This document shows positions 42,209 to 60,415 of a DNA stretch of 64,000 nt, one piece after another (positions within the stretch are counted from its first letter, which is position 1; every line of letters starts with the position of its first letter). A program made the position numbers and the translations under genes. The notes beneath the pieces were generated by a model. The model ran no database searches, was not told the origin of the DNA, and saw only the letters and a program-made list of their open reading frames with translations. This stretch comes from Nitrospinaceae bacterium (GTDB taxonomy: Bacteria > Nitrospinota > Nitrospinia > Nitrospinales > VA-1), in assembly GCA_021604505.1 (NCBI GenBank), contig BQJC01000003.1, positions 186,001 through 250,000 of the forward strand. Reading direction: 5' to 3'.

Positions 42209-42289
42209 GACCGAGGACTTACTTTCTTCGCTGTTAATTATCGAATACGCTTCGATGACAAACCTCCTTTTAAAACATGGCCCAGCCTG

Positions 42290-42778: not shown

Positions 42779-42836
42779 TTTTGATTTCCTTTCTAAAGAT
42801 ACAAAAATAATTTCCCGGTAAAAAAGGTCGCTTTTT

Positions 42837-43322: not shown

Positions 43323-43377
43323 AAATTGTTCACCTCTTCAACACAAAAAATGCCCCAGGCGCATCCCTGCCCCGGAA

Positions 43378-44259: not shown

Positions 44260-44274
44260 TCCTTTCCAAGGAAA

Positions 44275-44760
44275 TCAGTTACGGACCGGAGGCCGGGTGT
44301 GATCCTTTTTAACGAGATCTTTCCTGCAAAGTCTCGTTGCGCCAAAGCTGTATTCATCCAGGGAAGTCACTTTTCCCTCGACAAAATCAAAACGCGGACG
44401 GCGGGTCGACGTATCTCCCATGAGCCAGACATGCTTGAACCCACCTTCCGGAAATACCTCGTCAATATGTATCGTAGCGCCCCCTTTGGCGACGTTCGTC
44501 GCTTCTTCATCGAAAAGGGACGTCGCCTCATCGATCGACGGCAAACGCCAGTCACCATACCCTCCAATTTTGCGAAGATTTTTTTTGTCCGCATAATCAC
44601 GCGATTCATGCCAGTTTAAGAATTTTCCCTTGTCCTGCCAGGAATCTTTTTTCATCCAATAGACCTTGGTTTTTGTGTCATAAACGACATGCGGACCCTT
44701 TTCAACAAACCGTTTTGGTTTTGTGGGTTGATCCTGAGGAACCGGAACCTGTTCAGCCAT
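44275..44760 (-). CDS. DUF1566 protein D
   Basis: A 161-residue divergent DUF1566 member. The opening is changed (RFVEKGPHVVYDTKTKVYWMKKDSW instead of DNGDGTVTD), but NWHESRDYADKKNLRKIGGYGDWRLPSIDEATSLFD and a WLMGDTSTRRPRF segment keep the fold order. It ends GATRLCRKDLV. AAAGG precedes the ATG. The N-terminal 15 residues are Pro/Gln-rich. The loss of the Asp/Gly-rich opening suggests that any calcium-like site there is absent in this copy. Confidence 0.82.
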   Translation of the reverse strand: MAEQVPVPQDQPTKPKRFVEKGPHVVYDTKTKVYWMKKDSWQDKGKFLNWHESRDYADKKNLRKIGGYGDWRLPSIDEATSLFDEEATNVAKGGATIHIDEVFPEGGFKHVWLMGDTSTRRPRFDFVEGKVTSLDEYSFGATRLCRKDLVKKDHTRPPVRN

Positions 44761-44874
44761 TGTAAACCTTTATCAAAAATGTGAATCCACCGTTTTCTCA
44801 TCGGGCAAAGGCGCCTGCCTTCGGATAAGAATCAAAAACCCATCTCCATCATGAGGAGCCCCTTCCAGGGACTG

Positions 44875-45093
44875 TCAATCCCCGGTATAACCGATTTCGA
44901 CATTGCCTTCATCCACATTGACGATCACCGGAACCATGTACTGACCGTTGGTGTACTCCAGCAGTTTTTCCAATCCCTTAGGGTCGCTATCGACATTCAC
45001 ATAGGCAAAGGATTTATTCTGCTTTAGAAAATCTTCCCTGGCCTTTTTAGTGTGCGGACAGTCGTTTTTCCCAAAAATCATGTAATGACTCAT
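44875..45093 (-). CDS. glutaredoxin-like protein
   Basis: A 72-residue thioredoxin-fold protein. It opens YMIFGKNDCPHTKKARE, a CxxT active site in the glutaredoxin position, then VNVDSDPKGLEKLLEYTNG and MVPVIVNVDEG, which carries the cis-proline. It lacks the second cysteine, so it would act in glutathionylation or as a monothiol carrier rather than a dithiol reductase. AAGGA precedes the ATG. It is embedded among the DUF1566 genes on the same strand; its link to them is unknown. Confidence 0.88.
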   Translation of the reverse strand: MSHYMIFGKNDCPHTKKAREDFLKQNKSFAYVNVDSDPKGLEKLLEYTNGQYMVPVIVNVDEGNVEIGYTGD

Positions 45094-45151
45094 ATTTTCC
45101 TTCTATCTAAACTCCATTCCCGTGTGACGAAAATTGGAGGTTGCAAATCTC

Positions 45152-45781
45152 TTATCGTTCGAATTTTTTAGTTTCCTGCCGCCATTCGGGTTCCCAATTG
45201 TCCTTAATGTCATCGCGAACAAGACGGACATGGGAATACTCGTTTTCCTTATGCTCCCAGACTTCATTGCCAGTCACATAGCTGAACTTCATGGCGTATT
45301 GGTGGTAATCCGGCTTCTCTTCGAAAGTCCAGGTATTGTGCCCCTGCCCTGAATCAAACGCAGGATCGATATGCAGCTCGGCTCCGGCTTTATCGTAATT
45401 GGACATGGTGAAGGAAAAAAGCGTTTTGGCATCGTCAAAACTCGCCAACCGCCAATCGTCGTAACCGGCGAATTTTTTTTCGTTCATGAGTTCGCAATAA
45501 TCGTGCGCTTCAAACCAGGTGATCCCGTATCCAAATTCATCGAAGGAATCCGCCTTTTTCCACATCAAACTGTTGCGGGTATCGCTGACGGTTCCATCGC
45601 CATTGTCGACAAAACTGGGGAGCTCTTCTTCGACTAAGGCTTCCTCATCCTCATCCCACTCTTCTTCGCCTAACCACTCCTCGCCTTCATAGCCTTCCTC
45701 GTCGAGGGTGTCGGCGCCCGATTCCGCTTTTTCCTTATCCGCATCTAGGTCTTCATTTTCCAACTTTTCTTCGTCGGACAT
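45152..45781 (-). CDS. DUF1566 protein E with acidic N-terminal region
   Basis: A 209-residue protein. The first 55 residues are extremely acidic (GEEWLGEEEWDEDEEALVEEE), followed by a DUF1566 domain with FVDNGDGTVSDTRNSLMWKKADSF, EKKFAGYDDWRLASFDDAKTLFS and GQGHNTWTFEE. The C-terminus is charged. The start is ATG 45781 with an AGGAGTGG site; the 45799 alternative is further from it. The acidic leader resembles those of the TPR gene (48588) and coiled-coil gene (51535), perhaps a shared localisation or interaction tail. Confidence 0.88.
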   Translation of the reverse strand: MSDEEKLENEDLDADKEKAESGADTLDEEGYEGEEWLGEEEWDEDEEALVEEELPSFVDNGDGTVSDTRNSLMWKKADSFDEFGYGITWFEAHDYCELMNEKKFAGYDDWRLASFDDAKTLFSFTMSNYDKAGAELHIDPAFDSGQGHNTWTFEEKPDYHQYAMKFSYVTGNEVWEHKENEYSHVRLVRDDIKDNWEPEWRQETKKFER

Positions 45782-45872
45782 CCTGCCACTCCTAATCAAT
45801 TAAAACTGGATAACGGCTTGATCAACGCGTCACAAAATACGCAAAAATAAATTCCCCTGCCCTTCGGCGGCC

Positions 45873-46316
45873 TTATACGTCGCGAACCAGCCGAACGGAA
45901 GTGCCCGTGGTGGAAACGCTTTGTTCCACACAAACCTCCCGGGCGCCGGGAAAATAACATTTCCAGGCGTAAGAATCGTAGCGAGTTTCACTGGTCCAGA
46001 CACTAGTCTCTCCCCCGGCCTGATAATTCGCAACCCGGCGCGCGGGTTTTTCCACTTTTTGCTTCAAAAAAATTATACGATACGCTTTGTCGTTTCGGAA
46101 TAAAGACCGCACTTCACTTTTTGTCGGGAGTCTCCAATCATTATATCCTAAATATTTCTGCTCATTACAAGCGTTCACATAACTGTTGGCTTCGTCCCAA
46201 TTGAGCCACTTCCCCAATTCCTGCCGGGAATCCTTAACCGACCACTGGAGGTCTTCTTCAGTATCAACAACCGTTCCATCTTCTTTTATTTGAAAATTCT
46301 CGGATACTTCTGCCAA
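45873..46316 (-). CDS. DUF1566 protein F
   Basis: A 147-residue short member: QIKEDGTVVDTEEDLQWSVKDSR, then NACNEQKYLGYNDWRLPTKSEVRSLF and GGETSVWTSETRYD, ending SVSTTGTSVRLVRDV. The start is TTG 46316 with GAGGTGA just upstream. The LMW motif is LQW here. It contains three cysteines, in NACNEQ, WKCYFPG and EVCVEQ, more than the other copies. No signal peptide. Confidence 0.85.
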   Translation of the reverse strand: MAEVSENFQIKEDGTVVDTEEDLQWSVKDSRQELGKWLNWDEANSYVNACNEQKYLGYNDWRLPTKSEVRSLFRNDKAYRIIFLKQKVEKPARRVANYQAGGETSVWTSETRYDSYAWKCYFPGAREVCVEQSVSTTGTSVRLVRDV

Positions 46317-46719
46317 GGTTCACCTCACGGGAAAACGTGCAATGCAAAAAATCACCCAATTTCAACGGCGCATTCTTGCCCAGTTAAAAAAGTCCACGTC
46401 AGGATTAGCGGCACCCAAAAATCCCAGGGACAAGATCAACCAGAAGCGAGCAAAATCCAGAAACAGGGTGACCCGGTTTAAAAAGAATAATTTATTGTAT
46501 GGGCAAGAGATTTTATTTCAATAAAATATCATTGAGAACGACTATTTTCAACCCCAATTCAAACTATCGCTCGTCCTATAAAATGGCGCAAAACCGGCCA
46601 AAACGGGAAGGGGAAAGTGTGGAAAGGCAAAACCAGTCAGCTGGGAAAAACTGCAAAATAAGCAAAGATCAAAACAGTGGTCAAACCTTTCCCAGACCTG
46701 GAAATCGAGAGCGATCGGA
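46317..46719. other. gap inside the DUF1566 region, no gene seen
   Basis: About 400 bases of A-rich sequence between two DUF1566 genes. Reading frames on both strands have low-complexity Lys/Arg composition and no ribosome-binding sites. It may hold a promoter for copy F and the genes after it, or be the remains of a lost copy; no DUF1566 motif was found in any frame. Confidence 0.35.
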
Positions 46720-47217
46720 TCAGCGCCACCCTCCCCCTTGAGTGATAATATCCCTGACTTCCGGGATCTTTTCCTGCTTGATCTTGCTGGAGTCAAATTC
46801 GCCCCGAACGAGCCTCACACTGGTGTTGAGGATATCATCGACTTCCTTGTGCCCACCCATACCGTTATTAAAAGAATAAACGTATGCGGTGATCTTTCCT
46901 CGGGTGTTGCTCGTCCAGGTATCGAACCCACATCCAGGTAAAAAAACATCGTCGAGATGAATATCGATCCCGTATTTGTCCTTTAGAGTCTTTTCTTTAT
47001 CATAGAGAGTCTGGGCTTCCTTCTTGTCAGGCAGCCGCCAGTCCGAATATCCTGCAAACGCAACCTCATTTTTTTTGTTCTTATATTTTACCGCCTGGGT
47101 ATGAGTGAGAAATTTTTTAATATCCAGATAAGAGTCACTCTGCACCCACATCAGGTTGGTCAAAGTATCGGATACCGTTCCATCCCCATTATCGATGAAT
47201 CTTTGATGGTCGCTCAT
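46720..47217 (-). CDS. DUF1566 protein G
   Basis: A 165-residue member close to consensus: RFIDNGDGTVSDTLTNLMWVQSDSY, then KKNEVAFAGYSDWRLPDKKEAQTLYD, FLPGCGFDTWTS and SVRLVRGEF. AGGAG precedes the ATG. It shares the GCG cysteine with both domains of copy C, so these are probably the closest relatives. The last 25 residues leave the domain and end in a Gly/Trp tail. No signal peptide. Confidence 0.9.
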   Translation of the reverse strand: MSDHQRFIDNGDGTVSDTLTNLMWVQSDSYLDIKKFLTHTQAVKYKNKKNEVAFAGYSDWRLPDKKEAQTLYDKEKTLKDKYGIDIHLDDVFLPGCGFDTWTSNTRGKITAYVYSFNNGMGGHKEVDDILNTSVRLVRGEFDSSKIKQEKIPEVRDIITQGGGWR

Positions 47218-47288
47218 GTTTGCTCCTACTATTCCTCTTGATCGTTAATCACCATGCGCTATTTTAAAACCCGGTGCCGGTAAAAATC

Positions 47289-47323
47289 AAAAAAAAAAGC
47301 TGGAAGGCTTTCGCCTCCCAGCT
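47289..47323 (-). terminator. rho-independent terminator (minus strand)
   Basis: On the minus strand an 11-bp stem (47313-47323 with 47298-47308, one G-T pair) with a GAAA tetraloop is followed by nine T. It ends the transcript of the secreted protein at 47350-47838 and so divides the gene run into at least two transcripts. Confidence 0.9.
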
Positions 47324-47349
47324 CATTTTGAATCTTTAAGACTAAAATA

Positions 47350-47838
47350 TTATCTTGCTGTCTCAGAACGATGACCCATGTTACTGAAGATTCCTCTTTC
47401 AGTTCCTTCGGGCATTCCCATACCAGGCTCGATATAGGTTCCAGGACGCGTGTGGTCGAGATGATAATTGCTCTGATAGGTTTTTCCAGAACCTGCATCA
47501 ATTTTCCAGTCATGGCGGTCAAACCGCTGCCTTTGACAGTTCACTGAGATCGTACCCGGGCCATTGTTGGTGATGATGGACTTCATGGCCATGGCGTTGG
47601 TCTCGTATCCACCCGGAGGCAACGTTGCCTTGAATACTTTTTCCCATGCATAGGCATGAGGACCAATGTCAAACGTAATATTGGTTTCTTCAGTCTCACT
47701 TGTGTTGTAAACAACCCATGAAGCATTTTCACAGATGGCTTTGCCGCCGGACTTCACTTCGGTCACGTTGGCACTTGCCAAAGCTACAAAAGAAAATAAC
47801 GCGAAAACCGTGATTGCACTAACAGCCGTCCTTCTCAT
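47350..47838 (-). CDS. small secreted protein, unknown
   Basis: A 162-residue exported protein. The signal peptide covers about residues 1-23 (cleavage after ALASA). The mature domain is beta-rich with two cysteines (KAICENAS and VNCQRQ) that could pair, and a repeated aromatic/Asp pattern (NITFDIGPHAYAWEKVFKA). The last 40 residues are Gly/Pro/Met-rich. GGGGGAG precedes the ATG. It ends in its own strong terminator, so it is not simply cotranscribed with the downstream DUF1566 genes. Family not recognised. Confidence 0.75.
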   Translation of the reverse strand: MRRTAVSAITVFALFSFVALASANVTEVKSGGKAICENASWVVYNTSETEETNITFDIGPHAYAWEKVFKATLPPGGYETNAMAMKSIITNNGPGTISVNCQRQRFDRHDWKIDAGSGKTYQSNYHLDHTRPGTYIEPGMGMPEGTERGIFSNMGHRSETAR

Positions 47839-48149
47839 TTGCTCCCCCTTTCAATAGCGGAATTAACTTGAAGATAATATAACATCAATCCCTACATTCA
47901 GAAAACCTAAACCACCTCCTATCGACTTCTTTTTATCTTATCTATTCGAAAAATTCCTGGCGCAAATTGTCGCTTTCGGTATAGGTAACCCTTCCAACTT
48001 TCATTGGCTTTTCTAGGGTCGGGCAAAAATATCAAACACCATGCGATAAGTCAACCTTTATATTTTGAGGGGAACCCGCAAGAAACACAACTCTTTTAAA
48101 ATCAATAAAAATGGACCTTTCCAGGTTTTTTCGTCAAACTCCCCGTTCT
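47839..48149. other. intergenic region upstream of the secreted protein
   Basis: It should hold the promoter of the minus-strand secreted protein gene. A TATATTAT-like stretch lies about 50 bases before its ATG without a clear -35. A small hairpin near 48117-48135 with T-runs could mark the end of the LRR gene transcript. No gene seen. Confidence 0.4.
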
Positions 48150-48545
48150 CTAAACCCGGAACTTCAATGTGGTCAACTTGACCAAAGAAAGAGAATTTCT
48201 CAAAAATTTCTCCCCGTCTTCCGAAATGTCATTGACCACCAGTTGAAGAGCCCGCAGGTTTTTCAAATATTTAGCGTTTGCCAGATGGCGGGCGCCTTCG
48301 TCGCCAATGCTGTTGGATGAAAGATTCAAGGTCGTCAAATTAGAAAAAATAGCAGATTCGGTGATCGCCTTCACCCCATCGTCTCCAATATGGTTCTGTG
48401 ACAAATCCAGAGCGCGTAGTTTATTCAGGCTCTCTTGCTGAGCCAAAGCCCGGGCCCCCACTTCACGGATGAATTTTGCTTTTAAGCTCAAAACCTGTCC
48501 GTCACTGCTCAAATTATCTCTCACGAGTTCCTCTATGTTCGCCAT
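48150..48545 (-). CDS. short leucine-rich-repeat protein (RNI-like)
   Basis: A 131-residue protein of four to five LRR units of the ribonuclease-inhibitor/LRR_6 type (LRALDLSQNHIGDDGVKAI, LTTLNLSSNSIGDEGARHL, LRALQLVVNDISEDGEKFL). There is no signal peptide or membrane segment, so the repeats should face the cytoplasm. The array is too short for a closed horseshoe and probably binds a single partner. It lies 42 bases from the acidic TPR gene on the same strand. Confidence 0.85.
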   Translation of the reverse strand: MANIEELVRDNLSSDGQVLSLKAKFIREVGARALAQQESLNKLRALDLSQNHIGDDGVKAITESAIFSNLTTLNLSSNSIGDEGARHLANAKYLKNLRALQLVVNDISEDGEKFLRNSLSLVKLTTLKFRV

Positions 48546-48587
48546 GATTTTTTCCTAATCAAAAAGCTTCATCGCAAAGCGAAGCAA

Positions 48588-49439
48588 TCAGCCGGTTCCT
48601 GGAATGTCTTTGGCCTCGAATCCATATTCATCAAATGCCTTCCACCCCTCCTGAAGCATTTTTTTTGCGTATTTAACCATCAGATTCGCCTGAGAATGGT
48701 TGGGATCGATGTCCAAAGTTTTTTTGAGGTGTTTCAGCGCAGCTTTTACATCCTTGATTTCACCGCCATAATGTTCAATCTGCCGCGATTTGTCGATCAG
48801 GTCCGAAGCCCATTTATAATAGGTATCGGCGATTTGCTGCGGCGCATTTTTGCTGACGTATTCAACAATATCTTCATCCGCCTTTAAAAAATTCAAATTC
48901 TGAATGGCGGATTCAAACTCGCGAATCGGAATTTCATAATCTTCATTAGCCACCTGAGTGATCGTATCCCCGGCTTTATGGGCGGAATGCAGGCCGACGG
49001 AGCTTCTGACAACCGTTCCGTGGATTCCCGATATGAGTTTGCTGTAATGCAGGTTGCCAATCGCAAAGTGAATGATCGCGGTGAACTCCTTTTCCGTATC
49101 CAATTCCAGAGCCAGGTCAAATTCATCTCTGGCTTCTTCCAGATCCCCAAGCTCTACCAGGGCTTCCCCTAAATTATAATGGTGAACGCAGTTATCCGGT
49201 TCTTCCTCAATTTGCTGGCGGAATTCTTCAATCTGAGCCTCAAGGTCAAACTCAAGCTCTTCCTCCTCGTCGAACTCGGTGAGGGTCTGCCCATCCGATG
49301 GGATCAACCCGGCTTCCGATGCCTCAGCAAGAGGATCGACGGAGTCCCCCGTTTCTTCAGAGGATTCCGGAGCGTCTTCAGCAGATTCCGGAGCGTCTTC
49401 GGAATCTTTCAATTCCTCTTTTTGATTTTCGTCATCCAT
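48588..49439 (-). CDS. acidic TPR protein
   Basis: A 283-residue protein. Residues 1-65 are strongly acidic (repeated DAPESAEDAPESSEE-type units). The middle holds TPR pairs (NCVHHYNLGEALVELGDLEEARDEFDLALEL, then FAIGNLHYSKLISG), and further helices near the end include LKHLKKTLDIDPNHSQANLMVKYAKKML. It is cytosolic, with a short tail after the last repeat (WKAFDEYGFEAKDIPGTG). It is a likely scaffold for the other proteins of this run; partner unknown. Confidence 0.85.
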   Translation of the reverse strand: MDDENQKEELKDSEDAPESAEDAPESSEETGDSVDPLAEASEAGLIPSDGQTLTEFDEEEELEFDLEAQIEEFRQQIEEEPDNCVHHYNLGEALVELGDLEEARDEFDLALELDTEKEFTAIIHFAIGNLHYSKLISGIHGTVVRSSVGLHSAHKAGDTITQVANEDYEIPIREFESAIQNLNFLKADEDIVEYVSKNAPQQIADTYYKWASDLIDKSRQIEHYGGEIKDVKAALKHLKKTLDIDPNHSQANLMVKYAKKMLQEGWKAFDEYGFEAKDIPGTG

Positions 49440-49462
49440 ATTTCAACTCTTATTTTCTGCCG

Positions 49463-50086
49463 TCATTTTTGCGCGGCCTGTTCCGGAGAATTCACTTTTC
49501 TTACCAGCCGAATCGTCGACAAAGACAACCCCGGACCGCCTTTGGGACTGGGATAGGCTTTTCCCCGGATGAAATTGAAAGTCCACGCGTAGTCTCCCTT
49601 CTTATGCGTTTCACTCGTCCAGAAACAACAACTGGTATTTCCAAAAATCGGGTCCATGTGAACTTCATTGGTTGTCCAATAATATTTCCAGGGAATTATT
49701 TTTTCCGCTTCATAAAGTGTGGCCAATTCTTTCCGGGTGGGTAGTTTCCAATCGTCGTAACCGGCAAAACGCTTTTCGTTGATGTCCTGAATATAGCCTT
49801 GAGCCATTTCCCAGTTGAGCCATTTTTTCTGCTCCTGATAGGAGTCCTGTTGCTTCCACATCAACCCTTCCTGAAGGTCGGTCACCGTGCCGTCCTGATT
49901 GTCTTGATACCGGGGGTCGTTGGAGGGCGCCAAGGTTTTATTTTTGTCTGTCAAAGATAAAATTTGCCCGCCGAATATCTCGTCTTTACCCTCCGTTGCA
50001 GCGTTTTCAGCAAACACCACCGTTGTCATCGGGAATAACAGAACCCACACCAGAAAAAACACCTGGGAAACGCCGCTTCTTTTCAT
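49463..50086 (-). CDS. exported DUF1566 protein H
   Basis: A 207-residue member with an N-terminal signal peptide (MKRSGVSQVFFLVWVLLFP, then TTVVFAENA), the only clearly exported DUF1566 copy here. The domain begins with a changed opening (RYQDNQDGTVTDLQEGLMWKQQDSY), then RFAGYDDWKLPTRKELATLYEAEK and a cysteine pair in NTSCCFWTSE. I chose the ATG at 50086 because AAGGA lies 6 bases upstream; ATG codons at 50098 and 50110 are alternatives. It should be periplasmic or on the surface. Confidence 0.87.
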   Translation of the reverse strand: MKRSGVSQVFFLVWVLLFPMTTVVFAENAATEGKDEIFGGQILSLTDKNKTLAPSNDPRYQDNQDGTVTDLQEGLMWKQQDSYQEQKKWLNWEMAQGYIQDINEKRFAGYDDWKLPTRKELATLYEAEKIIPWKYYWTTNEVHMDPIFGNTSCCFWTSETHKKGDYAWTFNFIRGKAYPSPKGGPGLSLSTIRLVRKVNSPEQAAQK

Positions 50087-50189
50087 TTTATCCTTCATCC
50101 ATTGGATCATCGGACACCGATCTTCCAATACCAACCCGTTGGAATGCACAGATACCCATCCATTGATTCGACACTCTTTTATGTTTCCC

Positions 50190-51215
50190 TTATTCTTCTT
50201 GAGGCGCCCAATCAGGCTCCCATGAGAGGCAGATGCCAGCAGGGTTCTGGAATTGCCCCGGCTCCTTGCCGATCACCCCCCATTTGGCAACAAAGTTCAG
50301 ATCCGGATCAAACTTTTGAATCCTTTGATTGATTGTATCGACTACAAACACATACCCATAGGGGTCTTCAACCGCCGCCACCGGGCAATTGAACTGTCCG
50401 TCCCTTTTCCCCGGCTCCCCCATCACACCCAAACTTTCCCCCTCGCGCGAAAAAATCTGCAACCGGTTTTGACTCTTTTCAGCAACCAGAATCGTTCCAT
50501 CGCGGCGAACGAGAATGCCGCTGGGAAAATTAAGCCGGCCCTGCTCCGAACCATACTCGCCAAATTTGGATAAATATTGCCCGTCTTCGTTGAATATCTG
50601 AATCCTTTGATTGTCCCGGTCGGCAACATATATATTACCTTCTTTATCCAAAGCGACCCCCGTCGGAAATTTGAGAAACCCGTCAAAATCACCGGCAAAA
50701 CCAAAACTCAACAGAAAGTCGCCGTCGTCGTCATAACGCTTGATGCAATGATTGTGGGTATCGGCAACCAGGACGGTTCCAGTAGGTTCCGCGATGATTC
50801 CCTCCGGCCAGTAAAACTTTTCCTGGCCCCAGCCCTCGCTTCCGAACACATGCAGAAAATCGCCGTCAGGATCAAATTTTTGTATGCGGTGACACCCCGT
50901 ATCCGCCACCCAGATGTTGCCGTTGGTGTCCACGGTGACTGCACCCGGTGTTTTAAATTCCCCTTCATTATAAGGAGGCCGGGTTCCACCGGAACGGCCA
51001 AAGGCTGAGAGGAATTTGCCGTTTCCGTCAAATTTCTGAATCCGATCGTTTCCGGAGTCTGCGATCCAGACATATAACTTGGAATGATCGACGACAAATT
51101 CTTCTGGCTGTTCCTCCGGAAGGGTTTCGCCTTCAACAACAGCAATGGCATCTTTAGGAAGGGATTCGTCCGGCGCCACCGGTTCAAGATTTTCTCCTTG
51201 TAACTCTTCTGACAT
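50190..51215 (-). CDS. NHL-repeat beta-propeller protein
   Basis: A 341-residue protein of six NHL blades, each with a VADTxxHRIQKFDxDGxFLxxFG-like pattern at roughly 45-residue spacing (from about residue 45). Examples are WIADSGNDRIQKFDGNG, WVADTGCHRIQKFDPDG and YVADRDNQRIQIFNEDG. A full six-bladed propeller is therefore expected. The first 45 residues are acidic, like those of its neighbours, and no signal peptide precedes them, so it should stay in the cytoplasm. NHL propellers bind protein or RNA; no enzymatic domain is fused here. Confidence 0.93.
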   Translation of the reverse strand: MSEELQGENLEPVAPDESLPKDAIAVVEGETLPEEQPEEFVVDHSKLYVWIADSGNDRIQKFDGNGKFLSAFGRSGGTRPPYNEGEFKTPGAVTVDTNGNIWVADTGCHRIQKFDPDGDFLHVFGSEGWGQEKFYWPEGIIAEPTGTVLVADTHNHCIKRYDDDGDFLLSFGFAGDFDGFLKFPTGVALDKEGNIYVADRDNQRIQIFNEDGQYLSKFGEYGSEQGRLNFPSGILVRRDGTILVAEKSQNRLQIFSREGESLGVMGEPGKRDGQFNCPVAAVEDPYGYVFVVDTINQRIQKFDPDLNFVAKWGVIGKEPGQFQNPAGICLSWEPDWAPQEE

Positions 51216-51534
51216 AGTGCCTCGCTACTCGAATGTTAGTCGGTTTCCACGATTAAAATGGGTGAGGTCCTCAAACGACGGGCGGCTCCTCATTATTAAA
51301 CACCCCATCAAATGACTGCGGATTCTAAAACCCATGAGGCGCATCTTGATCGTCACAAAGAGAAGGCCTCTTTGGAGACCTTTATTTGGAAACCAGGGGG
51401 TAGCTTCCAAATCAATAAATAACCTTGAGAAGAAAGAAATTTTAAAAAATCTGGCGTCCTTAAGTGAGTGGCAACGATGGGGTTTCTAAAGTTATGAGGG
51501 CGATCCCCCCCGGACTTTATGCAACCCAACGGCA
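51216..51534. other. intergenic region, no gene seen
   Basis: About 320 bases between the coiled-coil gene and the NHL gene. Short frames here lack ribosome-binding sites. It probably contains the NHL gene promoter; no clear hexamer pair was found. Confidence 0.35.
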
Positions 51535-52146
51535 CTACTCCTTGATCATGAATGTTTTGCAATCAAGAATCTGATATTCAAAATCGCAGGCCTTCTGCAG
51601 TTCCGCCAACCGTTCGTTCCAGTTAGTTACAAAGTTATCGAGGCTCTCCGATTTGGGTTTCTTTTTCATCAGGCCGACTTCTTTCATCAACGGCTTCACC
51701 AGATTCTTATGAATCAATTGCAGGGTGTTGCGCAATTTCAAGATAACGTCTTTGGTCACCAGCTCCCGCGTCACCCCATCGACATTTTCCAGCAGTCTGA
51801 GAAATGATTGTATGGTGGACAGCTGAGTCGCATAGCTTTCAGCCAGCTGGTGGTTGTATTTCAAACCGCAATCGATGTGAGCAGGCAACAACCACATGCT
51901 GCAATGATGATCAAACTTGACCGAAAGAGTAATAAGCTTTTGCAGGTAGTCGACTTCACGGAGATCTTCCTCCTCATCTTCACCTTCTTCCAGTTCCTTT
52001 GCCGCTTTCTCTTTTTCTTTCTGGAGCTCTAATTTGATTTTCTCAAGCTCACTCAAATCCGCTAGGGAATCAACGTCCTTTGTGTCCTCACCAGCGGCTT
52101 CCTTGCCTTGTTCTTCATTCTTGGTTTCAGTGTCCTGGTCGCTCAA
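51535..52146 (-). CDS. acidic coiled-coil protein, unknown
   Basis: A 203-residue cytosolic protein. Residues 1-75 are acidic with a coiled-coil stretch (ELEKIKLELQKEKEKAAKELEEGEDEEEDL). The rest is a helical bundle (YLQKLITLSVKFDHHCSMW, then LSTIQSFLRLLENVDGVTREL) with a cysteine/histidine pair (DHHCS) and a CDFEYQILDCKTF end. It is the most upstream gene of the minus-strand run and faces the radical SAM gene across a divergent promoter region. No family recognised. Confidence 0.75.
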   Translation of the reverse strand: MSDQDTETKNEEQGKEAAGEDTKDVDSLADLSELEKIKLELQKEKEKAAKELEEGEDEEEDLREVDYLQKLITLSVKFDHHCSMWLLPAHIDCGLKYNHQLAESYATQLSTIQSFLRLLENVDGVTRELVTKDVILKLRNTLQLIHKNLVKPLMKEVGLMKKKPKSESLDNFVTNWNERLAELQKACDFEYQILDCKTFMIKE

Positions 52147-52457: not shown

Positions 52458-54263
52458 ATGAAATCGGCTCTGATTTTCCCTCCGCAATGGTTTCCCAGTC
52501 AGCCCTACCTGGCCTTGCCGACCCTGAAGGCCTACTTGGAAAACAAGGGGCACACAGTCGATCAGTTCGATTTCAATATCGAAAGTTATGAAATCTTTCT
52601 TTCCCGGAACTATTTGACCCGTTGCGTGGAAATCATTCGCCAACGCCTCTCCAAACCGGCATACACCGCCGCGGACCAACAGGCGCAAGCGGTTTACCGG
52701 CAAATCCTCTCCGACCCGGATTACCTGGAAAGCGTTTTTTCGGAAGTCGAAGACGCGGCCAATGTCCTACGCACCGAAGAATTATTTTTTCAATTCCCGC
52801 TCTACAAAAAGGCTTACACCACCCTTAAAATCGCGATGAAACTCATTTCATTCGCGCATCACCCGAGTCGCATTGATCTGGAATCATTCTTCATGCAGGG
52901 AACCCCGGAGGAAAACCTGGCCGGCATCGTGTCCGCCACACAGGATTCTATCAGCAATCCTTATCTTGGCCTTTACCGGGACCACCTGATCTCAAAGGTA
53001 AATTGGAAAAATTACGGGCTGGCGGGGATCTCCATCATCCATGTCGGGCAGGTGATTCCGGGGCTGACCCTCGCGCGTCTGCTACGCAAACAATACCCTG
53101 ATCTGCACATCGTCATTGGCGGCAGCGTATTCGCTCGCCACCAGGATATTCTGAAAAACAAACAAACCCTGTTCGAAGAATTCTTTCACAGCATCATTTT
53201 ATTCGAAGGCGAGGAACCCCTCGACCAGCTCATCGTTCACCTGAAGGAACATAAACCCATTCACACGGTTCCCAATCTGATCTACCTGGAAGACGGCGAA
53301 GTCAAGCGCAACGAAAAATCCAAAGCTCTGCCATACGAACAACTGGCGCGGCCCAACTTCGACGGCCTTCCCTTGGAAAAATACCTGATGCCTTACCCCG
53401 TCCTGCCCTATATGGCCAGCCGCGGATGCTACTGGGGCAAATGCACGTTTTGCACGCACAGTTTCATTTACGATTCCTACTACCGTAAGGATAACGAACA
53501 GCGCGTGGCCGAAGACCTGGACCACCTCGGCAAACGTTACGGGACAAAATATTTTACCTTTTCAGATGAAGCCATATCACCCAGCGCATTTCGCCGCATG
53601 TCTTCCGCGATCCTTTCCAAGGGAGTGGAGATGCGGGCCCTGGGGATGCTTAAATTCGAATCGGGAAATGTGGAAACTCCCGAATTGTTTGAAGAGATGC
53701 AACGCGCCGGATTCATCATGCTGTTTTTCGGATTGGAAAGCGCCAACGACCGCATTCTTTCCATCATCGACAAGGGCTGTGATCAGGCCACGGAAAAGCT
53801 GGTGCTGAAAAACAGCTCCGATGCAGGAATCTGGAATCACCTTTACCTGTTTTTTGGCTTCCCCACGGAAGAAAGGCACGAAGCGGAAGACACCATCCAG
53901 TTCACCGTGGAAAACAGCGAAACAGGAACCGGAATCATTCATTCCGTCGGGCAGTCTACCTTTGCCCTGGAAAAGGATTCCGCCGTCTACCACAACCCCG
54001 CAAAGTTCAAAATCGAACGCATCCTGCACGACCCGGATCGGGACATGGCCATCGTTTTCGATTTCGATATTAATGAAGGCATGTCGCGGGATGAGGTCAT
54101 GGAGGTGTACGAAAATTTCAATGAAATCATTCAGGAAAATTTTCCTTCCAGAAATATATGGAACTTTCTGTCCCGTGAGCATTTTCTTCTTTATCTGGAC
54201 CGCTTTGGTAAGGAAGAGATTCTCAACATGGCCAAAGATGAGGAATTGACGGCACAGGCCTGA
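52458..54263 (+). CDS. B12-binding-type radical SAM protein
   Basis: A 601-residue protein. Residues about 1-190 resemble a cobalamin-binding Rossmann domain (ALIFPPQWFPSQPYLALPTLKAYLENKG, then LHIVIGGSVFARH). The radical SAM part starts near 310, with cluster cysteines 324, 329 and 332 in RGCYWGKCTFC. This is CX4CX2C, one residue longer than the standard CX3CX2C. A GLESAND motif follows near 425. The last 120 residues are a family-specific extension. No lipid or porphyrin genes adjoin; a MidA-like methyltransferase and a second radical SAM protein lie downstream, suggesting peptide or protein modification. Confidence 0.9.
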   Translation: MKSALIFPPQWFPSQPYLALPTLKAYLENKGHTVDQFDFNIESYEIFLSRNYLTRCVEIIRQRLSKPAYTAADQQAQAVYRQILSDPDYLESVFSEVEDAANVLRTEELFFQFPLYKKAYTTLKIAMKLISFAHHPSRIDLESFFMQGTPEENLAGIVSATQDSISNPYLGLYRDHLISKVNWKNYGLAGISIIHVGQVIPGLTLARLLRKQYPDLHIVIGGSVFARHQDILKNKQTLFEEFFHSIILFEGEEPLDQLIVHLKEHKPIHTVPNLIYLEDGEVKRNEKSKALPYEQLARPNFDGLPLEKYLMPYPVLPYMASRGCYWGKCTFCTHSFIYDSYYRKDNEQRVAEDLDHLGKRYGTKYFTFSDEAISPSAFRRMSSAILSKGVEMRALGMLKFESGNVETPELFEEMQRAGFIMLFFGLESANDRILSIIDKGCDQATEKLVLKNSSDAGIWNHLYLFFGFPTEERHEAEDTIQFTVENSETGTGIIHSVGQSTFALEKDSAVYHNPAKFKIERILHDPDRDMAIVFDFDINEGMSRDEVMEVYENFNEIIQENFPSRNIWNFLSREHFLLYLDRFGKEEILNMAKDEELTAQA

Positions 54264-54355
54264 ACTTTTTATAGGACCGGCGAACCTTCTCCTCCAGCGC
54301 TGCCAATTTCCTGAGAATAGCAATTTGACAACGCCGTCTTAGAGAGTTTCATTGG

Positions 54356-54384
54356 TTGACAGCTTCTGGCGGATACCCTAAAAT
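54356..54384 (+). promoter_or_regulatory. sigma-70 promoter of the TPR gene
   Basis: TTGACA at 54356-54361, exactly 17 bases, then TAAAAT at 54379-54384. Transcription would start near 54391, about 55 bases before the ATG at 54446. The TPR, methyltransferase and second radical SAM genes can thus be expressed without the first gene. Confidence 0.82.
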
Positions 54385-54445
54385 TTATTCATACCGCTCA
54401 GATGAACTCATAATTACGTCAGAAAATACAAGGAGTATTTGCATA

Positions 54446-55588
54446 ATGGCAGAGGCAAAAGGCAATCCTACCGATTGGGTCACCATGAAAATTGACCCGG
54501 AAATTTTTGATGAGCTGGGTGTTCGCGATCCGGAGCAGATCAAACTGGAAACCAAAATCATGAAAATGGTTCGCCAGGTAAAAAAAGAATTGAAAACCGA
54601 TCCGGACAATCTGGACAAGTTAAATGAACTGGCCACCTACTATATTGACGGCGGAAATTACCAGGACGCCATCGATATTTTGAAAAAGGTCGTCAGCAAG
54701 GATCCCAAAAATGCCCGCGCCTACAAGGTGCTCGGAACCGCTTACAGCTTGCACAAGCACGAAGACGAAGCCATTCGCGATTTGAACCGCGCCGCCGAGC
54801 TGACGCCCGATGACCCGGAAATTCATTTTAACCTTGGCGGAGTCTATATGTTGCAGGAGTGTTTCGCGAACGCCGTTCAAAGTTTTAAAAGGGTTGTCGA
54901 GCTGGACCCCACCGATATCATGGGTTATGCGAATCTGGCCGCTGCTTATGACATTCAAATGATGTATGAAGAAGAGATCATGGTGCTTAAAAAGGTCTTG
55001 ATGTTCAGCCCTGAAGACAAGGAACTCCGGTCCGCACTCTCCACCTCCTATTTTAACGCCGGCCATTACGATGAAGCCCTCAACGCCGCCTTGTGCGTCG
55101 TGGACATTGACGAGAAAGACCCTCAGGCTTATTGCAATCTGGGGAGCTGTTACTCGGTAAAGAACATGGTCGACGAAGCCATCGGGGCTTTTAATAAGGC
55201 CAGCGAACTGGACCCCGAATACAATTTGCCGCACACCAACCTGGGATCACTATACGCCACAATGGGCCGACTGGAAAAAGCCATCAAGGAATTCAAACTG
55301 GCCGCCTCATTGAACCGGAGCGATGCTCTCGCCTGGTACAATCTGTACAATTGCTACAAAGAAATCGGGCGATTCGAGGATGCCGAGGAAGCCTACCGAA
55401 CCTATGAAAAATTGATGAAAACCATGGGAGAAGACAGCCCGGACTCCAGCGGGGGAATCGCGGAAGGCGCGAATCCTTCCAACATACCCGGCGGGGTTTC
55501 CCAGACCGGTGGCTATGCCGGCGGCGGGGACATGTCCGGAAACGCGCCTGGAATGGAAGCCCTCACTGACGACCCGGATTCCAAATGA
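54446..55588 (+). CDS. TPR-repeat protein
   Basis: A 380-residue cytosolic protein with seven or eight tandem TPR units from about residue 55 to 330, each with the W/L-G-Y-A-F-P pattern (LATYYIDGGNYQDAIDILKKVVSKDPKN, then AYKVLGTAYSLHKHEDEAIRDLNRAAEL). The last 50 residues are Gly/Pro/Ser-rich and disordered. AAGGAG precedes the ATG; the longer frame from 54356 runs through the promoter and is not used. It follows the radical SAM protein and precedes the MidA-like methyltransferase, so it may be a docking protein for their substrate. Confidence 0.92.
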   Translation: MAEAKGNPTDWVTMKIDPEIFDELGVRDPEQIKLETKIMKMVRQVKKELKTDPDNLDKLNELATYYIDGGNYQDAIDILKKVVSKDPKNARAYKVLGTAYSLHKHEDEAIRDLNRAAELTPDDPEIHFNLGGVYMLQECFANAVQSFKRVVELDPTDIMGYANLAAAYDIQMMYEEEIMVLKKVLMFSPEDKELRSALSTSYFNAGHYDEALNAALCVVDIDEKDPQAYCNLGSCYSVKNMVDEAIGAFNKASELDPEYNLPHTNLGSLYATMGRLEKAIKEFKLAASLNRSDALAWYNLYNCYKEIGRFEDAEEAYRTYEKLMKTMGEDSPDSSGGIAEGANPSNIPGGVSQTGGYAGGGDMSGNAPGMEALTDDPDSK

Positions 55589-55623
55589 CCTCACAATTCC
55601 TGAAGGGAATGTGAGATAGACCG

Positions 55624-57009
55624 ATGAATCAAGGTTCCCCGCAACCCCTGCCGCTTGGGGATTTTAAACCTTCAGACCAATGGCAGACCCATATCAATTC
55701 CATTTTTTATGGAATGCTGGGTCCAAAAATCCACAACCACTTCCAAACCTACGTCAGTCTGGACCATCGGCTGGCACACACACTGGCGGAAGACTATTTC
55801 CATCAGGTTGCGGATAAACCGTCCTCTCCATCCACCCGTTTTATTCAGGAATGGGGAGTCGGCAACGGCAACCTGGCCGCCTGCTTTCTCTCCCACTTGA
55901 AAGCAATCGATTCCGAGCAAACCGTTTACCCCTTCACCCATTACGTCCTGTGCGATTATTCCGCAGAGATCCTGAAAGGCGTTCGGGCCAATCCGCGCCT
56001 CAGAGAGCACGACGGACATTTTTCCACCGTCCAGGTGAATGCCGACCGTCTGGATTGCTTCAAACCGGCTTCGATCGACAAGATCATTTCCAATGAAATC
56101 TGGGACGACCTGTCCACCAAGGTGCTTTTGAAGCATCAAGGCATCTTGTATGAAGAATACCTGCAGCCGAATCTGGACCCGGCTTTACTGAACATCGAAT
56201 TCGAATCCTTTATAAAAATGTTCGAGAACAAGGATCTCGAATCCTTGCAAGCCCAGCCTCCCTTCCTCGCGGCGATCGTTTGGGAACGAAGCTTTCAACG
56301 CGTGGACATCGGCGACTGGCCTTATGCCGAGACTATCCAGGCGCAAATAGACGAGTGGACGGAGGAAATTCCCATGCCCATCAACACCGGCGCCTTCATC
56401 ACCCTGGAGCGCGCCCGCCAGCTTTTGAGCCCGGACAGTCAGGGATACACCGCCTTCGATTACGGCATGTTTTCCATTAAAGAACTCAACACGGAAGGAC
56501 GCCCCTACTGCAACCTCTACGGCGGGCAATACACCTTCATGGTGAACTTCGATCTGATGCTGCGGGCGGGGCAGGCCGCGGGATTCTCAGACGTAAAAAA
56601 AGAATACCAGCACCTGTATGTGGGCCGCCATCTGAACGGAAACACCGCCAGCCTGGTGGAGATTTTACAGAATCATCCGCAGGTCGCCGAAATGCCCCCC
56701 TGGGACCGGGATCTTTTGATGATTCAGACCCTGCAAGCCGTCAACTCAGCTTATAAAAGTCCGTACAAAAACAAAATGAAGTATCCGCCCATAGAGGGCA
56801 CACCCAAAAAACAGCGTAAGCTGATCGCCAAACTAGTGGACAGTCTCAGCCCTCACGGTGTTCCCGATACTGTAGCTTATGTCAAGGAAAGCGAAGTTTT
56901 TGCCGCGCTGAAACCGCTCAGAAAACTGGGCTACCGGGAAAAAGACCTTAAAAAGGCCTTTCACACACCGCCTCCCCCCATTGCCTTCACCGCCATCCAT
57001 TTTCGTTAA
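55624..57009 (+). CDS. MidA-like SAM-dependent methyltransferase
   Basis: A 461-residue protein. The glycine-rich SAM-binding loop is in FIQEWGVGNGNLAACFL near residue 75. CDYSAEILKGVR carries the acidic ribose-binding position. SNEIWDDLSTKVL near 157 matches the MidA/NDUFAF7 NELLDALP-type segment. Family members methylate proteins, for example an arginine of complex I in mitochondria, but bacterial targets are mostly unknown. A C-terminal part of about 100 residues is Lys/Pro-rich. It starts 35 bases after the TPR gene and is probably in the same transcript. Assignment to MidA is moderate. Confidence 0.7.
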   Translation: MNQGSPQPLPLGDFKPSDQWQTHINSIFYGMLGPKIHNHFQTYVSLDHRLAHTLAEDYFHQVADKPSSPSTRFIQEWGVGNGNLAACFLSHLKAIDSEQTVYPFTHYVLCDYSAEILKGVRANPRLREHDGHFSTVQVNADRLDCFKPASIDKIISNEIWDDLSTKVLLKHQGILYEEYLQPNLDPALLNIEFESFIKMFENKDLESLQAQPPFLAAIVWERSFQRVDIGDWPYAETIQAQIDEWTEEIPMPINTGAFITLERARQLLSPDSQGYTAFDYGMFSIKELNTEGRPYCNLYGGQYTFMVNFDLMLRAGQAAGFSDVKKEYQHLYVGRHLNGNTASLVEILQNHPQVAEMPPWDRDLLMIQTLQAVNSAYKSPYKNKMKYPPIEGTPKKQRKLIAKLVDSLSPHGVPDTVAYVKESEVFAALKPLRKLGYREKDLKKAFHTPPPPIAFTAIHFR

Positions 57010-57122
57010 GGCGAATCCGGCGCAAACCCGGCCTTGAATTACTTTGAGCCCACTTCCAGATTCATCCTATAATAATAGTTCCAGGCATTTCATCGACCAT
57101 AAACGCAGGTTCACTTTTTAAA

Positions 57123-58142
57123 ATGCTAAGCATTTTTGTAGAAGCCAGTTGCAACCGCTACAACCGCGACGAATGCGTCGATTGCCACGTCTACGAACCC
57201 TTAGGCCACCTGCCTAAATCCGAATGGCACATGCCGCCTGAAGACGCCAAGATCATGGCCGACAGAATACGCTCGGTCGATGTCCTGAACACCCTGGCGC
57301 AACAGGAAATCAACCTGACCGGCGGCGAGGCATCGCAGAATCCTCATATCGTCGAAATCTTTAAAATCTTCCGCACGGTGACCCCCAACGTCTGCCTGCA
57401 CACCAACCTCGACATCAACTCGGACCAATCCAAACGCTGGCTGAGGCTGGTGGAGATCATGAAGCTGGGCGGCAGGATCGACATCACCCTGTACCCGGTG
57501 TCCTGGGAAAAATTTCAAAAACCTCTGCTGAAAAAAACTTTGGAACTGCAAAACCGCCTGCTGGTGAATGTGGTTTTCGAGAATCTCAACAATTTAAGCG
57601 ATCAACTCCAACTGCTTCTCGATTTTTTCAAAGAACAGGGAAAAACCTACGATCATGTCGTGAACCTTCTTCAGGAATACCACGACAAAGTGTCCACCCT
57701 CAGGAAGACCGATCCCGATTGTGATGAAGCGGCCTATCTCCGCCACATGGGAAACCCGGGATCTTTTGCGCAAAAGAAGGAATTTACTTTCGGAATCAAT
57801 CTCCTGCCCGCCTTCAAGGTGGACGCCGAGGGGCGCCGGGCGATGGCATCCATTCCTTTCCCTAAGGAAAATTACCTGATCGAATGCCCTGCCGCGCGCG
57901 GCTCCATCGACATCATGACCGTCCGCCAGGACGGGGGCATGACCCCCTGCTGTGACGTGGGAAACCTTAAATGTCAGCCCAGATTCGGCAACCTGCTCAA
58001 GGATTCACCGGAAAAAATCCTGGAACAATTTGAAGCCTCACGGAAAATCATGGCCGCCGGCATCATGAAAAACCGGGAAAATATAAAGAACGACAAACCG
58101 GGCGCATGGGTGGAAGAAGGAATTCCGCCTTATTGCAGTTGA
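57123..58142 (+). CDS. radical SAM protein with SPASM-like C-terminus
   Basis: A 339-residue radical SAM protein. The cluster cysteines are C10, C18 and C21 (CX7CX2C), an atypical spacing, followed by the SAM-binding NLTGGEASQNP near residue 62 and HTNLDIN near 98. The C-terminal region has ECPAARG, then DGGMTPCCDVGNLKCQP, like the auxiliary-cluster (SPASM) segment of peptide-modifying enzymes. It contains seven or more cysteines after residue 190, enough for at least one auxiliary cluster. Gene order with the B12-type enzyme, TPR protein and methyltransferase suggests a shared modification pathway. Confidence 0.87.
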   Translation: MLSIFVEASCNRYNRDECVDCHVYEPLGHLPKSEWHMPPEDAKIMADRIRSVDVLNTLAQQEINLTGGEASQNPHIVEIFKIFRTVTPNVCLHTNLDINSDQSKRWLRLVEIMKLGGRIDITLYPVSWEKFQKPLLKKTLELQNRLLVNVVFENLNNLSDQLQLLLDFFKEQGKTYDHVVNLLQEYHDKVSTLRKTDPDCDEAAYLRHMGNPGSFAQKKEFTFGINLLPAFKVDAEGRRAMASIPFPKENYLIECPAARGSIDIMTVRQDGGMTPCCDVGNLKCQPRFGNLLKDSPEKILEQFEASRKIMAAGIMKNRENIKNDKPGAWVEEGIPPYCS

Positions 58143-58342
58143 TACCGCTTCAACTCACCCAAAATTTTTCTCTCCGTGAATGCCCAAAAAACAAGAATTT
58201 TCACTTTGCATAAAAAAACCGGCTTTTCCTTTGATCAGGGAGGAACGATAATAAGGAATTATCCTCTCAACGTTTGGCGCCCCTGAGGCGCTGTTTTAAT
58301 GGCTGACCGGGACTTGAGTGAAAACGATCTGGAGCGGAAACT

Positions 58343-58546
58343 ATGAAATACATTTTAATTCTAGTGTGGTTGTCAGCCTCTGGAGAGGAACTACATAAAC
58401 AGAATTTTGTGGAATATTCCGAATTGAAAACCTGTGAACTGCATAGAGACGACGCCAGAAGCCAAAAGGGCAAAAAGGATTACCCCGTATTGACCAGTGA
58501 GGAGGAATACACCCTGAAAGATGCCTACTGCAAAGAGGTAAAATAG
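58343..58546 (+). CDS. small exported-looking protein after the radical SAM cluster
   Basis: A 67-residue protein: a short hydrophobic N-terminus (MKYILILVWLSAS), then charged sequence with cysteines near positions 32 and 64 (LKTCELHRDD and DAYCKEVK). GGAG lies about 10 bases before the ATG. It lies about 200 bases after the second radical SAM gene on the same strand. Its size, position and cysteines would allow it to be a substrate of the cluster, but the sequence shows no clear leader-core layout or double-glycine cleavage site, so this is only a possibility. Confidence 0.6.
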   Translation: MKYILILVWLSASGEELHKQNFVEYSELKTCELHRDDARSQKGKKDYPVLTSEEEYTLKDAYCKEVK

Positions 58547-58653: not shown

Positions 58654-59724
58654 CTAACGCCGGGCCTCCAGGACCATATTGAACGGCGTTTCCGCAACCC
58701 GCCGGAATTGTTTGAATCCACCGGAGGTCACCACTTCCCGAAGCCGTTTTTCACCAGCCTGCGCTCCCAAAGCCAAACCCACTTCCTGGCTCAGCGAGGA
58801 CGGCGTGCAAACCGTCGTTGAAAACGAATAATACACCTGGCTCACAGGGTTGAGATTCTGTTCCAAAGAGTCGTTGGCGAAGGGTTCCACGATCATCCAG
58901 GTGCCGTTCGGGTCTAGTTTACTGTACACGTGTTTGGCGGCTCCCGCCGGATCGCCCATATCGTGCAGGCAATCAAAAAAAGTGACCAGGTCGTAGGATT
59001 CACCGGGAAATTCCTTAGCCTTGGCTGTTTCAAAGGTCACGTTTTTCAGTCCCTTTTCCAGTGCCAGTTGTTTGGCCTGGTCGATAGAAGGCTGGTGAAA
59101 GTCGAACCCGTAAAAATGGCTGTTCGGAAATGTCTCCGCCATGAGCAGAGTGGAATGTCCAAAACCGCATCCCACATCGGCTGCCTCACCGCCTTTTTCC
59201 AGCTTCCCCTGCACTCCGTCCAGGGCGGGAATCCAGGATGGAATCAGGTGAGCTTTGTAAGTGGGTTTGAAAAATTTGGCCACACCGCAGAACAGACAGG
59301 AGTCGTGAGCCCCCCAGGAAACCCCCTCGCCCGTGCGGAACGCATTAGAAATTTTTGGCTCGTCGGCAAACAATGAAGCGATCGAAGTGAATCCTCCCCC
59401 CATATAAAACGGACTTTCTTCATCCGCGAACACCACCGCTTGTTCCGCAGTCATGGAGAAATGGCTTTTTTCCGGGTCGTACTGTACATAGCCCGATGCG
59501 GCCTGGTTCGAAAGCCATTCTAAAACATATCTTGCCGTTGTCCCGGTGCGTTCCGCCAGGTCGTCGGCATTCAGAGGACCGTGTTCGGCAAGCGCCTTGT
59601 ATAATCCCAGCTTTTGGCCAATCACCACCAGCACTCCGCTGGAAGCGGCTGCCAGATCGCCGACCATTTTCCCCATGAATTCGTGCAATTTGTTTTCATC
59701 GATGGATTGCGATTGAGTTGACAT
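58654..59724 (-). CDS. SAM-dependent methyltransferase with winged-helix N-terminal domain
   Basis: A 356-residue protein. Residues about 15-95 form a winged-helix dimerisation domain (KLGLYKALAEHGPLNADDLAERTGTTARYVLEWLSN), as in O-methyltransferase and Rv2258c-like enzymes. The catalytic part has the SAM loop ADVGCGFGHSTLLMAE near 185, the acidic FYGFDFHQPSID and DLVTFFDCLHDMGDP. Likely a small-molecule methyltransferase. A strong GGAGG precedes the ATG. A palindromic operator matching the TetR gene operator lies in its promoter region, so it is probably repressed by the neighbouring TetR protein. Confidence 0.9.
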   Translation of the reverse strand: MSTQSQSIDENKLHEFMGKMVGDLAAASSGVLVVIGQKLGLYKALAEHGPLNADDLAERTGTTARYVLEWLSNQAASGYVQYDPEKSHFSMTAEQAVVFADEESPFYMGGGFTSIASLFADEPKISNAFRTGEGVSWGAHDSCLFCGVAKFFKPTYKAHLIPSWIPALDGVQGKLEKGGEAADVGCGFGHSTLLMAETFPNSHFYGFDFHQPSIDQAKQLALEKGLKNVTFETAKAKEFPGESYDLVTFFDCLHDMGDPAGAAKHVYSKLDPNGTWMIVEPFANDSLEQNLNPVSQVYYSFSTTVCTPSSLSQEVGLALGAQAGEKRLREVVTSGGFKQFRRVAETPFNMVLEARR

Positions 59725-59789
59725 TTTCCACCTCCTTGCATCACGGTTTTCGTTTTAATTTTCACCTAAGTCATTGACATTCATTCGAA

Positions 59790-59809
59790 TAAACCAACCG
59801 GTCGGTTTA
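59790..59809. promoter_or_regulatory. TetR-type operator in the methyltransferase promoter region
   Basis: An imperfect palindrome TAAACCAACCGGTCGGTTTA. Aligned with the element at 60426-60445, the ACCAACC and GTC blocks and the outer arms agree (about 15 of 19 positions). It resembles the core of known TetR/NemR-type boxes, which have TAGACC and GGTCTA arms. Confidence 0.75.
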
Positions 59810-59827
59810 ATCTTGTGAGAAAAAAAA

Positions 59828-60415
59828 TCAGCTGGACAGCGCTTCCAGATGATTTCGAAAATTTCTAAAACCTCTGGTAACCACCTTCCAGTCTTTATTG
59901 ACCCTCGCCAGAACGATTGAACCTTCCAGCATCACGACAAATTGTTCGGCAAGTTCCTTTGCAGTCGCATGACCTTTATTCCCATTCCCACAGGCGGCGG
60001 GCAGGAAGATCAGTTCCAGACGAGCTTCCAGTTTTTTAAACAGTTTGGAAATTCGAGTGCGTATCCTGGGATTGGTTTCCGCCAATTCCATACCCAGATT
60101 TGCTAACAGACAGCCGTTGCCCCAAAGCTCTTTGGCCAGTTTGTCCATGTGGTCCACGAAGGCCAGCATTTTCTGCCTGGGGTCCTGGACCTCATTGAAC
60201 GGGCCATCAAAAATTTTCTCTCTCCCGCCCTGGTGATACCATTCCAGCAGGACGAGACCCAGTTCCTCCTTTGAAGGAAACGCATGATAAAAGCTCCCTT
60301 TGCTCACCCCGGCTTTTTCACAGATTTCATCCACCGTGGTCGCCGGATATCCCTTGGACAGCATCAAACCCGTCGCGGCCTGCAATAATTTTTCTTGCGT
60401 CTTCGTGACATTCAT
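59828..60415 (-). CDS. TetR-family transcriptional regulator
   Basis: A 195-residue repressor. The N-terminal DNA-binding domain (about 8-55) has the helix-turn-helix TTVDEICEKAGVSKGSFYHAFPSKEELGL. The C-terminal helical domain (70-190), which binds the inducer, holds a cysteine in NGCLLANLGMEL that could sense electrophiles. The two palindromes flanking it, one in the methyltransferase promoter and one in its own, point to repression of that gene and autoregulation. The effector is unknown. Start ATG at 60415; its ribosome-binding site is weak. Confidence 0.93.
   Translation of the reverse strand: MNVTKTQEKLLQAATGLMLSKGYPATTVDEICEKAGVSKGSFYHAFPSKEELGLVLLEWYHQGGREKIFDGPFNEVQDPRQKMLAFVDHMDKLAKELWGNGCLLANLGMELAETNPRIRTRISKLFKKLEARLELIFLPAACGNGNKGHATAKELAEQFVVMLEGSIVLARVNKDWKVVTRGFRNFRNHLEALSS

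Follow-up and report, generated by a model that had tools for sequence, protein, structure and literature searches.

The window analyzed here, a 64,000-nucleotide stretch of DNA from Nitrospinaceae bacterium (assembly GCA_021604505.1, contig BQJC01000003.1, positions 186,001–250,000 of the forward strand), encodes a cassette of four genes for a B12-type radical SAM enzyme, a TPR protein (TPR-A), a MidA-like methyltransferase (MT), and an optional second radical SAM enzyme (rSAM2), arranged in that order on the plus strand (52458–58142). This cassette makes up one half of a divergently transcribed locus that is conserved in, and specific to, the order Nitrospinales. Tentatively, we propose that the locus is devoted to protein modification and acts on its own products. 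The genes of the cassette are as follows:

52458–54263, plus strand: B12-binding-type radical SAM enzyme with a CX4CX2C motif (PF04055); first gene of the cassette, with orthologues across the order.
54446–55588, plus strand: TPR-A, with TPR repeats and a conserved C-terminal IPGGVS tail.
55624–57009, plus strand: COG1565/MidA-like SAM-dependent methyltransferase, MT (PF02636 and Foldseek matches); order-wide.
57123–58142, plus strand: rSAM2, with a CX7CX2C motif and a SPASM/Twitch-like C-terminus (SPASM, Radical_SAM, and Foldseek matches); optional.

All four genes, which had been recognized in a first-pass annotation of the window, are real at these coordinates; for TPR-A, whose open reading frame (ORF) spans 54356–55588 on the plus strand, the ATG at 54446 is the likelier start. 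Their grouping also proved to be a conserved unit, but its boundary had been drawn too small. In maps of relatives, the cassette is transcribed away from a conserved minus-strand operon (41420–52146) that the annotation had missed and that encodes an NHL propeller, a TPR protein, a leucine-rich-repeat protein, a glutaredoxin, and eight Lcl_C (DUF1566) proteins, beginning with the conserved protein cl5. The order of the B12-type enzyme, TPR, MT, and, where present, rSAM2 genes is kept together with the divergent cl5–NHL–Lcl_C operon in about 25 genomes, and the conserved unit reaches at least as far as 41420 on one side and past the end of the window on the other.

In a scan of 291 genomes, MT was found in 57 of the 77 Nitrospinota genomes, all of them Nitrospinales, and in none of the 214 genomes outside the phylum. 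These counts include incomplete assemblies, in which absence is not proof of loss; among good-quality Nitrospinota genomes, MT is present in 28 of 31, and the remaining three lie outside the order, so that the gene is universal within it (28/28). The spread of cl5 is nearly the same (56/77, one order only), with both genes present in 53 genomes, neither in 17, and one alone in 7. A public genome collection, scanned with strict patterns, returned named records from Nitrospinaceae or Nitrospinota. In two lineages, G014 (L100, L132, and L133) and G038 (L105 and L134), the parts of the locus lie apart yet are all kept (G numbers denote genomes, L numbers the mapped loci of relatives). Co-occurrence of the halves even when unlinked supports a functional tie between them, although common descent alone could also give this pattern. 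The genes of the block thus occur together in other genomes, and the failure to do so that had been named as grounds for dismissing it was not observed. The literature searched contained no description of the Nitrospinales locus, and no paper in it linked radical SAM enzymes with DUF1566, or with Nitrospina and TPR proteins.

The cluster motif of the B12-type enzyme (CX4CX2C; C324, C329, and C332) is invariant in alignments and conserved in all 36 distinct sequences matched for the family; like the CX7CX2C motif of rSAM2, it had been read correctly and is not a chance occurrence. Its description as an unusual spacing did not hold, however. This family ordinarily has CX4CX2C, as do all paralogues inspected in the phylum, including two in the window's own genome (46.7% and 32% identity), and the spacing was rejected as a mark of unusual chemistry. 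More distant relatives of the enzyme occur in two genomes outside the phylum. A score of 48.3 bits against PF04055 (cut-off 29.5) identifies the radical SAM domain, and a weak match to the B12-binding domain PF02310 lies at the expected place (18.7 bits, below the cut-off of 32.1; paralogues score 27–30 bits), in a region across which several NCBIfam B12/radical SAM models also align.

The best curated model for this enzyme, TIGR03975 (rSAM_ocin_1), describes a radical SAM C-methyltransferase involved in the maturation of ribosomally synthesized and post-translationally modified peptides (RiPPs). With 116.6 bits, the window's enzyme falls far short of the cut-off of 281.85, whereas a true member from a relative (L128 720–2567), which served as a positive control, scores 601 bits. 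The two share a layout of a radical SAM domain with a B12-binding domain, the latter putative in the window's enzyme, but the true member carries CX7CX2C where the window's family carries CX4CX2C; at L128 720–4537, it stands in tandem with a CX4CX2C paralogue. Among PDB sequences, similarity is detectable to the solved B12 radical SAM enzymes OxsB (6e-8), TokK, and CysS over the B12/radical SAM core, although the alignment is distant and partial and the gene context differs. Paralogues at L126 9414–13056 and L130 8742–10619 neighbor a small protein and a large NHL-repeat-like one that looks exported.

MT has no meaningful relative among PDB sequences, and its assignment draws on domain and fold matches. 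PF02636 was found in 10 of 10 family members (best E 1.1e-7), with the window copy at 21.0 bits, under the gathering cut-off of 23.3. In agreement with this, the top six Foldseek matches, which include 4g67, 4f3n, 1zkd, 5ztz, and 5zu0, are all COG1565/MidA structures (E 5e-6 to 4e-4), although the TM-scores are near 0.2 and the predicted model is itself of low confidence (pTM 0.48). One of the matched structures is described in connection with protein arginine methylation and Complex I assembly. In contrast to MidA/NDUFAF7, to which these matches and the at- or near-threshold PF02636 scores relate it, the window's MT falls under the Pfam cut-off, is about 460 residues long, and belongs to a subfamily found only in Nitrospinales.

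The CX7CX2C motif of rSAM2 (C10, C18, and C21) lies at the extreme N-terminus, is invariant in alignments, and is kept in 50 of 50 distinct family sequences. The cysteine-rich end attributed to this enzyme is real, with near-invariant C255, C276, C277, C284, and C338 (C200 is near-invariant as well). A SPASM match was obtained in 16 of 16 members scanned and a Radical_SAM match in 15 of 16, both at E up to 0.1; in the window copy, the SPASM match is below cut-off. The AlphaFold2 model (pLDDT 77, pTM 0.81; low confidence in the cysteine regions) matches SuiB, MoaA, AbmM, SkfB, and PqqE in Foldseek at E of about 1e-4. The enzyme resembles the SPASM/Twitch peptide enzymes SuiB, SkfB, and PqqE, as well as MoaA, in predicted fold, in its subthreshold SPASM match, and in its conserved C-terminal cysteines, but differs from them in the placement of CX7CX2C at the extreme N-terminus, in reaching no curated NCBIfam family, and in having no meaningful sequence relative in the PDB. 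The same unconventional motif is known from the polytheonamide C-methyltransferases PoyB and PoyC (PMC5682303, PMC11285071), where it is carried by the B12 enzyme; in the Nitrospinales locus, it is carried by the non-B12 enzyme.

rSAM2 is an optional member of the unit, a property that the first-pass annotation had missed: it is present in 39 of 77 Nitrospinota genomes and was not found in the 214 genomes outside the phylum. Its tree contains two supported clades (100/100), one in the cassette and the other in, or derived from, the divergent operon, where in many relatives a second CX7CX2C paralogue lies directly downstream of the Lcl_C gene at 49463–50149 or a few genes beyond. The tree points to an old duplication followed by many losses, and the correspondence of one clade to each half of the locus suggests a long-standing tie of the CX7CX2C enzyme to both operons. 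In two genomes, the second CX7CX2C paralogue lies outside the main locus (L030 5752–6771 and L032 6313–7332) and adjoins, by eye, GroEL-like and SelO-like genes.

The substrate suggested originally was the product of a short cysteine-containing ORF at 58343–58546. The ORF exists, but a comparison that covered it and four intergenic stretches yielded no homologue in any related locus, even in relatives with 85% identity, and the ORF was rejected as a substrate and as part of the system. The divergent operon offers a better set of candidates. The glycine-rich tail of TPR-A may likewise be a better substrate lead, or else a docking motif: IPGGVS is 91–98% conserved after a linker of only 32% mean identity, and 42 of 43 complete TPR-A homologues have PGGV in this tail, the exception being G038. 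A genome-wide substrate tag of the IPGGVS type was also considered and rejected, as three nucleotide matches were found and one of them is TPR-A itself. No correlation was seen between the tail and the presence of the CX7CX2C enzyme.

Based on these data, a simple model would have the enzymes of the locus modify the many proteins encoded beside them, which resemble scaffolds or sensors. The B12-type enzyme would act on proteins of the same locus, probably by C-methylation, as would the MidA-like MT, probably by N-methylation, and, where present, the SPASM/Twitch enzyme rSAM2. TPR-A would serve as a scaffold or substrate carrier, and candidate substrates would be its own IPGGVS tail together with the Lcl_C and NHL products of the divergent operon. 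The mature assembly would probably be a cytoplasmic or envelope scaffold or a sensor linked to respiration. The predicted fold of rSAM2 would favor protein modification through its matches to the peptide modifiers SuiB, SkfB, and PqqE, with MoaA also matched, and the sequence of the B12-type enzyme would do so through rSAM_ocin_1 as its nearest model, albeit far below cut-off. Several observations weigh against this proposal. The analysis identified neither a substrate or precursor nor a modified residue. Lipids, tetrapyrroles, and phosphonates are also among the substrates of B12 radical SAM families, and the assignment of MT has to contend with a low-confidence model and low TM-scores. Co-occurrence of the halves is confounded with descent, the locus being order-specific. 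In addition, the locus persists in many genomes without the CX7CX2C enzyme, which is therefore not essential to it; genomes that lack this enzyme have the IPGGVS tail as well, and G038 retains the B12 enzyme, the TPR protein, and MT without the tail, which indicates that the tail is not strictly required.

Alternatively, the enzymes could build a Nitrospinales-specific lipid, cofactor, or other small molecule that is used or sensed by the Lcl_C/NHL operon, a possibility that we regard as doubtful. The B12 enzyme does match lipid and tetrapyrrole models (HpnJ, ladderane-type, and BchE), but weakly, far below their cut-offs and under the RiPP and P-methyltransferase models. Paralogues of this enzyme at other loci without TPR or MT genes, and MoaA among the fold matches of rSAM2, would fit a metabolite; the mapped locus, however, contains no other conserved biosynthetic enzymes, and MT resembles a protein methyltransferase. 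It is very unlikely that the locus is a classical RiPP pathway, in which a dedicated gene for a short precursor peptide would accompany the enzymes. The combination of SPASM/Twitch with B12 radical SAM enzymes is typical of such clusters, CX7CX2C is known in PoyB and PoyC (PMC5682303), and rSAM2 has SuiB and SkfB among its fold matches, yet the short ORF is without a homologue even in congeners, no peptidase, transporter, or precursor-recognition domain was seen in the cassette, and the universality of the locus in its order (28/28 good genomes) contrasts with the patchy spread of most RiPP clusters. The undescribed peptide or protein modification pathway of the first-pass annotation is thus a fair lead once its short-ORF substrate is set aside: every NCBIfam score of the B12-type enzyme, MT, and rSAM2 is below the curated cut-off, which places the homologues outside characterized subgroups, so that the other ground named for dismissal was not observed either, and the fold matches point to peptide or protein modifiers, though also to MoaA.

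A further alternative, maturation of nitrite oxidoreductase (NXR) or its electron partners, follows from the genes that come after the cassette. These encode, in relatives and immediately past the end of the window, a second NHL protein, a cytochrome c/EB_dh protein, cl12, and a STAS-like protein. The cytochrome (L113 1824–3458) carries an EB_dh domain along with two cytochrome c domains and fits the alternative NxrC, with heme c sites and a heme b domain, described in Nitrospina gracilis (PMC3578206). The targets would be this conserved neighbor or other respiratory subunits, in an order that includes marine nitrite oxidizers. However, the locus does not include nxrAB, and at L105 and L106 the cytochrome was not seen next to the cassette. 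Its signal-like N-terminus also implies maturation outside the cytoplasm, whereas the enzymes look cytosolic. Class-level relatives that lack the locus (G055 and G059) likewise have NxrA-like long open frames (about 1170 residues), so NXR maturation was rejected as the sole role, and we consider it unlikely overall.

Nitrospinales include the most abundant known ocean nitrite oxidizers. Cultured relatives lack multiple B12 synthesis genes, encode B12 uptake, and appear to be B12 auxotrophs (PMC8026999), which lends ecological interest to a B12-type radical enzyme that, with its paralogues, belongs to a locus universal in the order. If the locus modifies proteins, as we tentatively propose, it would contain new radical SAM and methyltransferase families and provide one reason for the B12 need of Nitrospinales. 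A more elaborate version, in which the glycine-rich tail of TPR-A (IPGGVS...) would receive C-methyl groups from the B12 enzyme, N-methyl groups from the MidA-like enzyme, and optionally cross-links from the CX7CX2C enzyme, the multiply modified protein then assembling a Nitrospinales-only Lcl_C/NHL scaffold that adds to external-B12 dependence, is highly improbable.

Read from cl5, the divergent operon comprises the following genes, with the glutaredoxin gene placed among those of the Lcl_C array:

51535–52146, minus strand: cl5, conserved acidic protein and first gene of the operon; no Pfam or NCBIfam family reached, fold unassigned.
50190–51215, minus strand: NHL-repeat propeller (PF01436, 131 bits), no evident signal peptide; conserved neighbor.
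49463–50149, minus strand: Lcl_C-domain protein (PF07603, 83.3 bits) with an N-terminal signal-like segment.
48588–49439, minus strand: TPR protein B (TPR-B), acidic N-terminus; conserved neighbor.
48150–48545, minus strand: small leucine-rich-repeat protein (PF13516); conserved neighbor.
47350–47838, minus strand: cl7, small exported-looking conserved protein; conserved neighbor, no match in the Pfam search.
42290–47217, minus strand: tandem array of seven Lcl_C (DUF1566) proteins (42290–42913, 42837–43322, 43378–44259, 44275–44760, 45152–45799, 45873–46316, and 46720–47217); PF07603 above cut-off in 7/7, order kept in relatives.
44875–45093, minus strand: glutaredoxin-like protein (CPHT; PF00462, 38.2 bits), in the same place in relatives.
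41420–42208, minus strand: SEC-C motif protein (PF02810), end of the operon.

The SEC-C protein is also present in two relatives with loci that reach that far (L034 and L134). The Lcl_C protein at 46720–47217 ends in ITQGGGWR, as do its counterparts in several relatives. Beyond the cassette, the window encodes at 58654–60415 a methyltransferase with an Rv2258c-like winged-helix N-terminus, which adjoins a TetR-type regulator.

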